From the NCBI GenBank assembly GCA_036003045.1, contig DASYSS010000057.1, positions 124,001-188,000 of the forward strand: DNA of 64,000 nucleotides, in the 5' to 3' direction. Source of the stretch: Gemmatimonadaceae bacterium (GTDB lineage: Bacteria; Gemmatimonadota; Gemmatimonadetes; Gemmatimonadales; Gemmatimonadaceae). Numbering within the stretch: position 1 is the first letter of the stretch; each line of letters begins with the position of its first letter. Of this stretch, positions 25,685-37,668 are shown piece by piece. Below the pieces are notes generated by a model. That model did no database searches and had not been told where the DNA came from. It saw nothing but the letters and a program-made list of their open reading frames with translations. Position numbers and translations under genes: made by a program.

Positions 25685-25981
25685 CTAGCGGACGTGGACG
25701 CTCACTTTCCCGGCTCCGGAGCCACGTCCTTTTCGGGGCGCGACGCGAACCTCGACGTCGCAGCCGAGCCGCGCGAGATACTTGACCAGACGGTCGAGCG
25801 AGAAGCCGCGCAGTCGCCCATTGGTGATCAGCGAGAGCTGCGAGGGCTGTTCGCGAATGAGATACGACGCCTCCGTCTGCGTCATCTGGCGATCGCGCAG
25901 AATACGTCCGATTTGTCGCGCCAACACTTCCTTTCGCAGGTCGATCTCGGCCGGCTTGGCCAACCGTAGCTTCGTCGCCAT
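25685..25981 (-). CDS. XRE-family HTH protein, antitoxin-like
   Basis: A 98-aa Cro/C1-type DNA-binding protein. Residues about 30-75 hold the HTH (RQMTQTEASYLI, then QPSQLSLITNGRLRGFSLDRLVKYLARLG in shortened form), the layout of the HTH_37 group that pairs with HigB/Gp49-like toxins. No toxin gene is present on either side: the upstream position, where such a toxin normally sits, is occupied by the degenerate repeat at 26104-26270. GGAGAA lies just upstream of the ATG. Confidence 0.78.
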   Translation of the reverse strand: MATKLRLAKPAEIDLRKEVLARQIGRILRDRQMTQTEASYLIREQPSQLSLITNGRLRGFSLDRLVKYLARLGCDVEVRVAPRKGRGSGAGKVSVHVR

Positions 25982-26103: not shown

Positions 26104-26270
26104 CCTAACGTCGGGAACGTCGCAGCTGATGAAGGCGCGAACTCCCGAGGGCGCCGACTCCCGAACGGCGCGACCTTCCGGGTGGCGCGAAGTGCGCGAA
26201 CTGCCAAGAGGCGCCCGGAAGAAGTCAGCGCTCCGAGGAAGTCAGCGCCCAAAGGAAGGAGGCGTTAGGA
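26104..26270. repeat. Degenerate 17-bp-phased repeat, copy 1
   Basis: About 165 bp built from diverged units near 17 bp long that begin GCGC or GGCGC and carry ACTCCCGA or AGGAAGTCA. The element starts with CCTAACG and ends with CGTTAGG, a 7-bp terminal inverted repeat. A closely similar stretch occurs in inverted orientation at 36660-36845. It lies upstream of the orphan HTH gene. Confidence 0.8.
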
Positions 26271-26363: not shown

Positions 26364-27014
26364 ATGATTCGCTCACTCGGTCGCGGCATGACCCGATGCG
26401 GGACCGCGACGCTGCTCGCCACGGTCGCGCTCCCCCTCCAACTCGCGGGACAACGCCTCGCGACAAGTGGCCGCATCACGCGGCTGCCCGCGCCGGTTGC
26501 GATCGATACGACCGGCCGTTTCCTGGCAGCCGCGGTGCGGGTCGGTGACGATTTTTTCATCGCCGGGCAGCCGACCGAGCTCGGTCTCAGAGAAATGAAG
26601 GCAAAGGGAGTGACGACCGTCGTCAATCTTCGCTCGCCCCAGGAGATGCAGACGCAAGTGAAGTTCGACGAGCCGGCGGTCGTGAAGGAGCTGGGGATGA
26701 AATACGTGTACCTGCCGATGCGCGGCACCCCCGAGCTCCCCTACTCGCCTGACGCCGTGAGCAAGCTCGCCGCGGCGGTCGCCGGCGCCGACGGCAAAGT
26801 GCTGTTGCACTGCACGATCGCCTGGCGTGCCAGCCACCTGTGGGCCGCGTATCTGATCAAGGAGCGCGGCGTCGACGTCGAGACCGCGCTGACCAACGCG
26901 CGCGCGATCAATCTCATGGACGACCATCGCATGGGGCCCGGCGGACGTCAGCCGGTCGAAGACTTTCTGGACAAAGCGCTCCCCACACTCGGACATCCGA
27001 AGCCGGCGCCATAG
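26364..27014 (+). CDS. Exported DUF442 / beta-lactamase-hydrolase-like phosphatase
   Basis: A 216-aa protein with a signal peptide (TLLATVALPLQLAGQ) and a dual-specificity-phosphatase-like domain of the DUF442/BLH type: FFIAGQPTELGLREMKAKG, VVNLRSPQE, and the P-loop LLHCTIAWRASHLWAAYL. The catalytic C150 and R155 are spaced C-x4-R, as in this family rather than the C-x5-R of classical tyrosine phosphatases. The ATG at 26364 has GGAGGAA 7 bp upstream. It is probably periplasmic. Confidence 0.85.
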   Translation: MIRSLGRGMTRCGTATLLATVALPLQLAGQRLATSGRITRLPAPVAIDTTGRFLAAAVRVGDDFFIAGQPTELGLREMKAKGVTTVVNLRSPQEMQTQVKFDEPAVVKELGMKYVYLPMRGTPELPYSPDAVSKLAAAVAGADGKVLLHCTIAWRASHLWAAYLIKERGVDVETALTNARAINLMDDHRMGPGGRQPVEDFLDKALPTLGHPKPAP

Positions 27015-30376: not shown

Positions 30377-30970
30377 CTAGGCTCGAACGTCGTCCCCGCC
30401 GCGCTTCGCCCGCCGTTGCGCGCCTCCCGAAGAGCGACGGACCTCGGGTTCGATCGAGACTTCTCGCTCCCCCTCGCCCTCCCCCTCCGAAATTGGCGCG
30501 AGCAGCGATAGACCGATCGCCGTCAGCTTCTCGTCGGTCTCCGCCTCCTCATCGAGCGTCTGCTGGAGCAACTCGACGTCGTCATCCAGGCCGAGCGCCT
30601 CGGCGAACGTTCGCGCGCAGCCGTAGGCGGCGATCTCGTAGTGCTCCACGCGCTGGGCCGCGGCGATCAGGCCGGCATCCGTGATCGTCGGCTCACCTTC
30701 CTCGCCGACCGCCTCTTCGCCTTCCTTGAGGAGTCCCGCCATACCCTTGCACTTCTTCCCGCCGATCTTCTCCTCCATCCGCTCACCGATTTCCTCGAGC
30801 CGCCGCACGTGCTCCCGGGTCTGCTCGAGGTGTTTCGCGAATCCGTCGCTCAACTCCTGATTCGCCGCCGCTTCGACCATTTTCGGCAATGCGTCGACGA
30901 TCTGCTGCTCGGCGCTGTAGAGATCACGAATCTGTTCGAAGTAGAGGTCCTGCAGTGTATCCAAGCTCAT
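30377..30970 (-). CDS. DUF892 (YciE-like) ferritin-like protein, copy 1
   Basis: A 197-aa helical protein of the DUF892 family with ferritin-like fold. MSLDTLQDLYFEQIRDLYSA is the family N-terminus, with carboxylate- and His-bearing helices (LEQTREHVRRLEEI, AAQRVEHYEIAAYG, TLDEEAETDEKL) that probably hold a di-metal site. A charged tail follows. GGAGG lies upstream of the ATG at 30970. It is a close paralogue of the gene at 61429. Confidence 0.9.
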   Translation of the reverse strand: MSLDTLQDLYFEQIRDLYSAEQQIVDALPKMVEAAANQELSDGFAKHLEQTREHVRRLEEIGERMEEKIGGKKCKGMAGLLKEGEEAVGEEGEPTITDAGLIAAAQRVEHYEIAAYGCARTFAEALGLDDDVELLQQTLDEEAETDEKLTAIGLSLLAPISEGEGEGEREVSIEPEVRRSSGGAQRRAKRGGDDVRA

Positions 30971-31135: not shown

Positions 31136-31285
31136 ATGCTGTGGACTCTCGCGGTCGTCCTGTTCGTTCTTTGGTTGTTGGGTTTCGTCGCGTTTCACGT
31201 CGGGGGCGGCCTCATCCACCTCCTGCTCGTCGTCGCGATCATTGTCGTCGTAATTCGTTTGCTCACGGGAAGACGCCCCGTCTAA
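31136..31285 (+). CDS. lmo0937-family small membrane protein
   Basis: A 49-aa protein, shorter than most gene-finder limits. Sequence begins MLWTLAVVLFVLWLLGFVAF and ends with RLLTGRRPV; two hydrophobic stretches flank a Gly-rich HVGGGLIHLL turn, as in the lmo0937 family of stress-linked small membrane proteins. It follows the DUF892 gene's divergent promoter region by about 165 bp. Confidence 0.8.
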   Translation: MLWTLAVVLFVLWLLGFVAFHVGGGLIHLLLVVAIIVVVIRLLTGRRPV

Positions 31286-31498
31286 CGACGAATCGCGGCG
31301 AAACGGGCGGCGCCGCCGATGCTCGTGCTCTTCGAGCGCGGCGGCCTCCCGCTACCAGGCGCGGCCCGGGTAGGTCGCCTGGGACGAGACGGATCCGGAG
31401 TGGAGGGTGCCCCCAAGTGTTGCCGCGTGGACGATTTTTTATCGGCTTAGGGGAAATGCCTTGCTCGGATTTGCACGCGCACCTTCCGGCGACTCGAC

Positions 31499-32410
31499 TT
31501 ACCGGTCTCGCGAGTCCGCGACCCACATTGCTCCGCTCTTCGGATGCACCGGGTGTCCGCGCGCGGCGGCGAAGTGTTCGGTGAATTCGGCACCGAACAG
31601 CAACAGGATGCCGGCGTAGTAGATCCACACGAGGATGACGGCGAACGTGCGGGCGGCGCCGAACGCGTTGCCCGGATTGGTCTGTCCGAGGTAGAGGCCG
31701 ATCGCGAACTTGCCGGCCTCGAACAACACCGCCGTCGCGATGCCGCCGACCCACACCGATCGCCATCTGATCTCGGCGTCGGGCAGAAACTTGAACATCG
31801 CCGCGAAGAGTACTGACAACGCCGCGAGAGCGACGAGCGAATTCAGCACCTGGATGATCCAGCCCACGTCGCCCAAGGCGTGGACCAACGCGGCGAGGAG
31901 AGCCGTAATCGCGAGCGACACCACGAGGAGAAAGGCGACGCCCATCGTCATCGCGATGGAGACGAGCCGCTTGAGAAGGAACCGACGCACGCCTCCCTGC
32001 TTGGGATCCGGCGCGACGCCCCACACGGCATTGAGGGCGCCCTGAAGGGCGAGAAACTCGCCGGTCGCGCCAAGCGCGAGCCCGATGATGCCATATGTCG
32101 TGGCGATCCATCCATGTCCCGTCCGCGACGCGTTCGTCACCATGTCGTGAACGGCCTGCGCGCCATCACCGCCAATCAAGGCGGCGAATTCACCTTCGAT
32201 CGAGTGCTGGATCTGCTCCGGCGACCAGAGAGCGCCGGCGAGTTTGATGAGCACGATGAGCAGCGGCGGCAGCGCGAAGATCGTGGCGTAGCTGAGCGCT
32301 GCCGCGCGCAATGTGCACTTGTCCTTCGAGAAGTCTTTCCCGGCACCGATCAGGATCCCGACAATGCCCCGGTGGCCGGCCGGTGAAGCAGAATTCGCCT
32401 TACCGCTCAT
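31499..32410 (-). CDS. YihY/BrkB-family membrane protein
   Basis: A 303-aa inner-membrane protein. The N-terminal LRAAALSYATIFALPPLLIV is the YihY/BrkB signature, followed by a periplasmic-side helical segment and five further hydrophobic segments, with GASLT-like FEAGKFAIGLYLG and AVILVWIYYAGILLLFGAEF at the end. Despite the old name RNase BN, members are now seen as membrane proteins of unsettled function. It is divergent from the histidine kinase. Confidence 0.88.
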   Translation of the reverse strand: MSGKANSASPAGHRGIVGILIGAGKDFSKDKCTLRAAALSYATIFALPPLLIVLIKLAGALWSPEQIQHSIEGEFAALIGGDGAQAVHDMVTNASRTGHGWIATTYGIIGLALGATGEFLALQGALNAVWGVAPDPKQGGVRRFLLKRLVSIAMTMGVAFLLVVSLAITALLAALVHALGDVGWIIQVLNSLVALAALSVLFAAMFKFLPDAEIRWRSVWVGGIATAVLFEAGKFAIGLYLGQTNPGNAFGAARTFAVILVWIYYAGILLLFGAEFTEHFAAARGHPVHPKSGAMWVADSRDR

Positions 32411-35679: not shown

Positions 35680-36240
35680 ATGATCAAACGACCGCGCAAA
35701 ATCGTCGCCTATCTCGCCGTCAGTCTCGACGGCTACATCGCGCGCCCCGACGGCGACGTCGAGTGGCTCAACCGCCGACCTCACACCGTCGATTACGGGT
35801 ACGCGAAGTTCACCGCGTCGGTCGACACCATTCTGCTCGGGCGGGGCACGTACGACTGGGCTGTCCGCTACATGAAGAAACACCCTGGAGCGCCCGTGTT
35901 CGATTCGCGGGCGACACACTACGTCTTCACGCGTCGGCCGCCCAGGCGCGGCGTATCCGGCGTCCAATTCACTTCGGAACCAGCCAAGGCCTTCGCGCGC
36001 CGGCTCCGCGCTCAGCGCGGAAAGAACATCTGGATGATGGGCGGCGGCCAGCTCATCGCGTCGTTCCTCGACGCCGGCGAGATCGATGAGTTCGATCTCC
36101 ACGTGATCCCGGTGCTGATCGGCAAGGGAATCCCGCTGATCGCCCCGCGTCACCGCGACATCGAGCTGCGCCTCGTTGGGGCAAAGAAGTACGCCGACGG
36201 CGTCGTTCGCCTACGCTACGAGGTCCCGCGACGGCGCTGA
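35680..36240 (+). CDS. RibD_C / dihydrofolate reductase-like protein
   Basis: A 186-aa protein of the RibD C-terminal (DHFR-like) family: VAYLAVSLDGYIARPDGDVEWL at the N-terminus, TILLGRGTYDW, and the cofactor-binding GKNIWMMGGGQLIASFLDAG, ending with IPVLIGKGIPLI. It probably binds NADPH; the substrate is unknown. It shares its fold with the gene at 39535 but the two are only distantly similar. Converges on the small gene at 36246. Confidence 0.88.
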   Translation: MIKRPRKIVAYLAVSLDGYIARPDGDVEWLNRRPHTVDYGYAKFTASVDTILLGRGTYDWAVRYMKKHPGAPVFDSRATHYVFTRRPPRRGVSGVQFTSEPAKAFARRLRAQRGKNIWMMGGGQLIASFLDAGEIDEFDLHVIPVLIGKGIPLIAPRHRDIELRLVGAKKYADGVVRLRYEVPRRR

Positions 36241-36659: not shown

Positions 36660-36836
36660 AGGCGACCGCGTGGGCGCTCACTTCCTCAGGGCGCTGACTT
36701 CTCAAAGCGCCGACTTCCTCGGGGCGCCTTTTGGGAGTGCGCGCACTTCGCGCCGCTCGGAAGTTCGCGTCCTTCGGAAGTCGGCGCCCTTCGGGAGTTG
36801 CGCCGTCATCAGCTGCGAAGCTCCCGTCGTCACGCC
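36660..36836. repeat. Degenerate 17-bp-phased repeat, copy 2 (inverted relative to copy 1)
   Basis: The reverse complement of this stretch aligns end to end with 26104-26270. Shared landmarks in order include CGCAGCTGATGA, AACTCCCGA, GGGCGCCGACT, GGCGCGAAGTGCGCG and GAAGTCAGCGC. Units run at about 17 bp and are diverged. It passes directly into the regular tandem array at 36837. Confidence 0.8.
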
Positions 36837-36996
36837 GTTAGGACGTCAGCGCCGTTAGGACGTCAGCGCCGTTAGGACGTCAGCGCCGTTAGGGCGTCAG
36901 CGCCGTTAGGGCGTCAGCGCCGTTAGGACCTCAGCGCTGCTAGGACGTCAGCGCCGTTAGGACGTCAGCGCTGTTAGGACGTCATCGCTCCTAGGC
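36837..36996. repeat. 17-bp tandem repeat array, about 9.5 copies
   Basis: The unit GTTAGGACGTCAGCGCC starts at 36837, 36854, 36871, 36888, 36905, 36922, 36939, 36956, 36973 and 36990, exactly 17 bp apart. Units differ at one to three positions (A/G after GTTAGG; GCTAGG once), and the last is partial. GACGTC in the unit is palindromic. There are no spacers, so this is not CRISPR. Confidence 0.95.
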
Positions 36997-37002
36997 AATC
37001 AT

Positions 37003-37668
37003 CTACGCCGTAGACGCCGCCCGAAACTCCGCCGGTCTCTCTCGTCTCGCCGACCCAAGTGCCGCCTGCGCCCGCTCCGAGTTCATCTCCGCGCCGTACA
37101 CCGGTGTCCCTGGCTGTTGCCGCCACGAATCGGCCAGCTTGCCCGTGTCGACCCCGTCGAATCCCAGCTCATCAATCAAGCGGAGCACGAGCGCCTTCGC
37201 CTCGGGATCGTCACCGGCCACAGGCAGCGCGAGACGGCCGGACTGATCGGCGGCCCGGCCGCGCTCCAGAATATTTTTCGCATACATCGTGTTGAACGCC
37301 TTCACCACAGGCCGGCCGAGCTGCTGCGAGACCCACAGGCTTTCCGGCGTTCCCTCTTCGATCCCCGATATCCGTCCGTCGCGTTGCGGATAATAGTTGC
37401 CCGTGTCGACGACGACCGTGCGATCCGCTTGCGCGAACAAGTCTTTCGGCAGATCGCGGACGCTCTTCTCCGGAATGGCGACGATCACGAGATCCTTTCC
37501 GCGCGCGGCCTCGAGGAGGGTGACTGCCTTCGCGCCCGACTGTGACTCCAGCGCGGCGAGCGTTTCTGGCCCTCGTGAGTTTGCGATCGAGACCTCGTGC
37601 CCAAGCGCGCTCAGGCGACGCGCGAGTGTGCCGCCGATGTGGCCGGCGCCGATGATTCCGATTTTCAT
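37003..37668 (-). CDS. NADP oxidoreductase, F420-dependent-like (Rossmann fold)
   Basis: A 221-aa protein with an N-terminal dinucleotide-binding motif KIGIIGAGHIGGTLARRLSALGH cut to its core, the ISNSRGP-like segment IANSRGPETL that recognises the NADP phosphate, and VVDTGNYYPQRDG. This is the F420_oxidored family pattern (NADPH:F420 reductase and relatives). Whether it uses F420 cannot be told from sequence. GGAGG precedes the ATG. It ends at the edge of the repeat array. Confidence 0.85.
   Translation of the reverse strand: MKIGIIGAGHIGGTLARRLSALGHEVSIANSRGPETLAALESQSGAKAVTLLEAARGKDLVIVAIPEKSVRDLPKDLFAQADRTVVVDTGNYYPQRDGRISGIEEGTPESLWVSQQLGRPVVKAFNTMYAKNILERGRAADQSGRLALPVAGDDPEAKALVLRLIDELGFDGVDTGKLADSWRQQPGTPVYGAEMNSERAQAALGSARRERPAEFRAASTA

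Follow-up and report, generated by a model that had tools for sequence, protein, structure and literature searches.

Inverted 17-bp repeat elements of a Gemmatimonadaceae genome: probable gene-less copies of a dispersed IVP hairpin element

The window studied here, a stretch of 64,000 nucleotides from a Gemmatimonadaceae bacterium, contains two related elements built from short diverged units, facing each other across some ten kilobases. What are these elements, and where did they come from? A previous reading, made from the sequence of the window without database searches, had drawn attention to the pair and had offered a lineage-specific satellite, a nucleoid or recombination site, or a structured RNA as possible identities.

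Two worn palindromes between genes

Comparison of the window with itself by BLASTN aligns 26108-26258 on the forward strand (element A) with 36830-36681 on the reverse strand (element B), with 84.9% identity over 152 bp (E = 7e-42). The elements are inverted and about 10.4 kb apart, confirming the sequence-only reading, which had placed inverted copies about 10.5 kb apart. Its unit length, near 17 bp, is also borne out. TRF detects a period of 17 at 26211-26250, 36672-36727, 36747-36804 and 36828-36988 in the window. The last of these is the strongest, with 9.5 copies of the unit CGTCAGCGCCGTTAGGA on the forward strand and 92% matches. Read on the reverse strand it is a tandem array of GCGCTGACGTCCTAACG lying beside the core of B, and it matches the arms of the C74 element discussed below. 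This long array had been overlooked.

Element A (26104-26270, forward strand) was characterised by alignment, TRF, folding and a shuffle test. Its left part consists of degenerate units of about 17 bp, GGCGCgaACTcCCGAa, and its right part of the reverse complement, GGAAGTCAGCGCc, with GGCGCGAAGTGCGCG near the centre. The core of element B (36681-36830, reverse strand) is 85% identical to A and is internally palindromic, as judged by BLASTN and the shuffle test. Since the units of the left half run one way and those of the right half the other, A and B are each a worn palindrome. The palindrome score of the A core is 25, a value reached by 2 of 300 dinucleotide shuffles; that of the B core is 34, and none of 300 shuffles attained it. 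The ends of A had been described as CCTAACG and CGTTAGG. Both sequences are there, as the outermost half-unit at the left end (26104-26110, forward strand) and, inverted, at the right end (26263-26269, reverse strand; CGTTAGG as read on the forward strand, by sequence reading). They are the tails of GCGCTGACGTCCTAACG units facing inward from either side, however, and not a separate terminal motif.

The ends of A and of B are complementary and can form a stem. Folding gave z = -3.9 for A as DNA and z = -2.8 for B as RNA, and to the extent of a foldable, RNA-like form the suggestion of a structured RNA holds; Rfam returned no match in the window at the gathering score. The elements were rightly described as noncoding and unlike a known insertion sequence. 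A, B and the other copies that we examined in this genome all lie between genes, as predicted with our own hexamer model, and tblastn found no IVP open reading frame within A or B. For a nucleoid or recombination site we found no support.

The neighbouring genes were identified by ORF scan and hexamer prediction. A occupies a divergent intergenic gap, not a gene 3′ end. To its left is a short gene on the reverse strand (25685-25981) that points away from it and looks HTH-like by eye, and to its right a gene on the forward strand (26364-27014). The former has no clear toxin partner and resembles a lone antitoxin, by eye only. B is flanked on the left by a gene resembling a RibD-like reductase (35680-36240, forward strand) and on the right by one resembling an NADPH-F420 reductase (37003-37668, reverse strand), both by eye. 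The 3′ end of the latter abuts the array, with 15 bp between array and stop codon. Homologues of this right-hand gene in three other species of the genus (G002, G003 and G004) have no array at the 3′ end, and synteny is broken there. Flanking-gene homologues were found in only three and one of eight relatives, in broken synteny, and a syntenic site lacking A or B was not seen; nor did the comparisons, which used draft assemblies and one genome per species, reveal an insertion with a target-site duplication.

An IVP gene in the loop of fuller copies

DNA searches of the genome of origin (5.37 Mb in 106 contigs) gave 22 matches with A and 26 with B, at about 18 distinct loci in all. A pattern of two units occurs 50 times in forward and 74 times in reverse orientation, and its reversed control not at all. 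Most of the stronger loci are two arrays set face to face across a short gap. A third composite copy, also missed previously, lies at C87:18764-18909 (77%); it shares with A and B a composite order of units over about 150 bp, together with unique stretches such as CGCAGCTGATGA. The units vary, with both ACTTCC and ACGTCC occurring, and CGTC is not conserved. Contigs C34 and C17 end inside arrays, as expected where repeats stop an assembler.

Among 58 relatives, the two-unit pattern was found 22 and 25 times in a member of the same genus (G005) and three times in each orientation in a genome of another genus (G024); the remaining counts were 0 to 2. The family is lineage-specific, as had been proposed, being clear in the congener, weak in G024 and at background in the other relatives searched. 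The description as a satellite fares less well, because fuller members carry a gene in the loop, and this shifts the reading toward a gene-less derivative of a hairpin element.

That gene is of the IVP family (23S_rRNA_IVP, a four-helix bundle), which encodes a small protein and is most familiar from insertions within ribosomal RNA. In the genome of origin an IVP-family reading frame lies between or beside the arms at three loci, C74, C86 and C69, and a gene of the same family occupies the loop of an element in the congener (G005:C7). The arms at C74 are at 31315-31463 and 31824-32117, and those at C86 at 30619-30736 and 31150-31320. TIGR02436 exceeds its cut-off at all three. PF05635 matches seven of seven members of the subfamily alignment with E ≤ 0.01, C74 falling just below the gathering score, and a search with the subfamily profile matches the solved family proteins 2rld and 2gsc.

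A and B have inverted arms of tandem units homologous to the arms of these genes. A aligns with the downstream arm of the C69 element (77% over 95 bp, E = 2e-11), and the B array with the arms of the C74 element (E = 3e-21). Sequence of A, B or the array matches arms at only 4 of 73 IVP loci, namely C69, C74, C86 and G005:C7; these four have an IVP gene in the loop, and A and B do not. Short GC-rich units could inflate the homology between arms; the 85% match of A with B includes stretches outside the units. On a tree of 72 IVP proteins, from which C74 was left out as too short, the IVPs with units of about 17 bp form one clade, with support of 100/99. Unit length changes state once on this tree, compared with a mean of 5.9 changes on shuffling, and none of 500 shuffles gave as low a value. 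In the congener, a single IVP-bearing element (arms of 233 bp, 94%) is accompanied by six hairpins with no detectable IVP, whose arms, of 126-269 bp with identities of 76-83%, are homologous to those of that element.

The reading that we prefer, with a probability of roughly three in four, takes A and B for gene-less MITE-like copies, in part decayed, of a dispersed IVP hairpin element. Because neither retains any remnant of an IVP gene, the argument for descent from a gene-bearing copy is one of arm homology, and we file A and B only as putative gene-less derivatives. They are probably old copies, B having later undergone a one-sided expansion of its array.

Arms, placement and turnover of IVP elements

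Inverted arms are common at IVP loci in general. For each locus or interval the 450 bp on the downstream side were reverse-complemented and aligned with the 450 bp on the upstream side, and the best alignment gave an arm score. Its median is 64.5 at 72 IVP loci and 24 at 720 random intervals from the same loci; 72% of the former and 0.4% of the latter score at least 50 (p = 5e-30). This level was reached by 3 of 451 control genes, by none of 132 small genes and by 2 of 94 genes flanked by gaps on both sides. One control gene, a long one at L063:12109-15414 with a score of 101, is bracketed by two inverted loci of 17-bp arrays. The arms are particular to their locus: matches of at least 50 are found within loci in 72% of cases, between loci of one genome in 1.9%, and between genomes in 0.4%. 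In the bacterial group to which the 72 loci belong the arm units are mostly of 7, 8 and 13-17 bp. An IVP gene at G000:C7:6544-6774 (L188) has on either side a very long array with a 16-bp unit, CCGAAACTGCCGAACG; the arms align over 303 columns at 70%.

One clade of five IVP genes is entirely without arms and provides an inner negative control. It comprises genes in four species of the host genus (G000:C87:16565-16885, G002:C25:54607-54927, G004:C9:157524-157844 and G005:C12:39187-39507) and one in G018 (contig C10), and has the look of a family member that has settled and is inherited vertically.

The association extends over many phyla. Among 77 loci in named genomes, 39% have a score of at least 40, compared with 1.1% of controls (p = 2e-32), and 7-bp units dominate. 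The survey suggests a widespread, little-described kind of mobile element. Scans of plasmids and phages turned up IVP genes chiefly on plasmids of cyanobacteria, and in one phage. Cyanobacterial IVP genes (L278) occur with heptads of the GGGAACA type, which may be linked with the tandem heptamers already known from cyanobacteria and Beggiatoaceae.

Where do the elements sit? With 330 gaps of at least 80 bp as controls, convergent gaps hold 24 of 51 clear-armed IVP elements and make up 55 of the 330 gaps (Fisher p = 7e-6), and the corresponding figures for divergent gaps are 6 of 51 and 99 of 330 (p = 0.007). The median distance from the arm edge is 7 bp to gene 3′ ends and 65 bp to 5′ ends. 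A role purely as convergent terminators was considered for the 17-bp loci and set aside: their contexts in the genome of origin look mixed, the 3′-end bias appearing in the larger IVP set.

This placement is what would be expected if the elements were kept as bidirectional terminators or as hairpins at mRNA 3′ ends, with slippage expanding the repeats and selection keeping the arms complementary. B conforms to it; A, in a divergent gap, does not. The arms themselves also argue against such an origin. They reach 91 bp at 100%, 231 bp at 94% and 279 bp at 89%, too alike for slow selection base by base, and look copied. Nor does a terminator function account for an IVP gene in the loop, or for a junction that is empty in 20 species of Rhizobium. 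We consider this explanation unlikely.

The Rhizobium junction was met in the survey of phyla, where four alphaproteobacterial loci share one position for the element, the gap from nuoC to nuoD (gene names read from sequence). From 100 genomes of Rhizobium, the genus of L237, 48 junctions could be read. Twenty are empty, 24 are occupied, three have the right arm only and one is partly deleted. Empty junctions measure 64-68 bp and contain a small GGCGGGC/GCCCGCC hairpin; occupied ones measure 472-494 bp, and a further occupied junction, in Methylobacterium (L259), 496 bp. At least three types of arm unit are present among the occupied junctions, each complementary within itself by eye; the automatic labels of unit type are rough, and L327 is probably misassigned. 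The states are interspersed on a tree of nuoD, the starred branches alone forcing at least seven changes for ‘empty’. At the level of sequence, the comparison shows turnover of the element class at this site, which could reflect insertion and loss, or recombination that swaps intergenic alleles between strains. Among the Rhizobiales junctions (L237, L210, L230, L259 and L288-L344) the element is present, absent or decayed in closely related species, and at some of them an arm overlaps the nuoC stop codon.

Origin of A and B

The intervening sequences (IVSs) of 23S rRNA have been suspected of mobility for decades, with no free-standing relatives to show how they might move (PMC4990558). IVP hairpin elements are best read as free-standing cousins of these. 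Like the gene-bearing relatives described here, IVSs with an S23p/IVP reading frame, such as that of Coxiella burnetii, have complementary ends that form a stem and an IVP reading frame in the loop; they are of about 430-550 bp and are placed where a hairpin loop was (PMC4990558). By contrast, the present elements are free-standing between protein genes and not inside a 23S rRNA helix, there are many in a genome, and their arms are locus-specific tandem units; A and B moreover lack the reading frame.

We propose the following scheme. The arms of the full element would be two inverted arrays whose short tandem units measure about 17 bp here, and its loop would hold an IVP gene of about 110 amino acids. 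A transcribed or single-stranded hairpin might move and insert itself at the 3′ ends of genes, rather as an IVS takes the place of a hairpin loop in 23S rRNA. The arms could then lengthen by slippage, and template switching across the hairpin could copy one arm onto the other, so that each locus would drift to its own unit yet stay self-complementary. Finally, IVP-less hairpins such as A, B and others would displace the gene-bearing ones as they spread, in the manner of MITEs or REPINs, and would then decay in place. Movement within the element class is supported by the sequence comparisons, and the arm-copying step is suggested by arms that are near-identical but locus-specific. From their association with the hairpins, we infer that IVP proteins may have a part in movement. 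We know of no catalytic site or activity in these proteins, and movement driven by them would therefore be conjectural.

A more general proposal, to which we give even odds, is that IVP genes (four-helix-bundle, S23/Avd-like) mark out, across bacteria, a class of hairpin elements that are small, mobile and without a known transposase. Each locus would have its own inverted tandem arrays as arms, and copying from arm to arm would restore them as a matched pair; the elements would settle at gene 3′ ends, with 23S rRNA IVSs as one special case and gene-less derivatives like A and B. If IVP genes do mark a widespread intergenic hairpin class with gene-less derivatives, the question of mobility becomes testable, and empty and filled sites in different species are at hand at the Rhizobium nuoC-nuoD junction. 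It would also explain where some of the puzzling intergenic minisatellites of bacteria come from. In the open-licence literature we found no account of IVP genes that are intergenic and enclosed by inverted tandem arrays, which is weak evidence of novelty.

The nearest parallel among gene-less repeats is the REPIN/RAYT system with its GTAG/CGTC-tagged REPs (PMC3116915, PMC3733652). A and B are short, gene-less and palindromic, and like REPINs they are intergenic and dispersed in several copies. In both systems rarer gene-bearing relatives carry the same ends as the gene-less copies, the relatives here being C69, C74 and C86. The partner differs, however, being an IVP gene, not a known transposase and in particular not an HUH/Y1 one, and the arms here are tandem arrays. 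It could be argued that A and B belong to a REPIN or MITE family driven by an unrelated transposase such as a RAYT, with the loop IVP genes as passengers, a role that would suit a protein of no known catalytic activity. But IVP genes occupy such hairpins in many phyla, and unit length tracks the IVP clade, which is not expected of a passenger; we regard this account as distinctly unlikely.

Two other repeats invite comparison with the IVP hairpin elements. The BrickBuilt MITE of Porphyromonas gingivalis (PMC4596501) similarly has a minisatellite, of 23 nt, in an intergenic MITE-like element with about 19 copies, but its ends are short IS5-like terminal inverted repeats and its array is internal and one-sided, whereas in the present elements it is the inverted arms that consist of arrays. 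The TAACTGA heptamer repeats of Beggiatoaceae and cyanobacteria (PMC4679880) are intergenic 7-bp tandem units like those of many IVP arms in other phyla; the published description is of direct repeats preceding start codons, with no link to IVP.

Could each 17-bp array be a plain minisatellite, made by independent local slippage with no moving element? The units are indeed homogenised within arrays and different between them. This is nevertheless very improbable in view of the composite order and unique stretches common to A, B and the C87 copy, and of the occurrence of arrays as inverted pairs. Lastly, the notion that A and B are remnants of integron attC sites, prompted by the CCTAACG/CGTTAGG ends, by an integron integrase in the genome and by an attI-like GCCTAAC at the end of its contig, can largely be dismissed, since CTTACG, CTAGGA or CTCGGA stands at the core position in other arrays, so that an attC core is not conserved, and there is no cassette spacing. 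In A the ends, CCCTAAC and GTTAGGA, do not fit the RYYYAAC/GTTRRRY core sites.

The integrase gene itself, IntI (C81:38258-39196, L084), scores 394 bits with TIGR02249 against a cut-off of 265. Its contig ends about 300 bp further on; close to that end is an attI-like GCAGCCTAACGACGCTG, and a cassette array may lie past the break.
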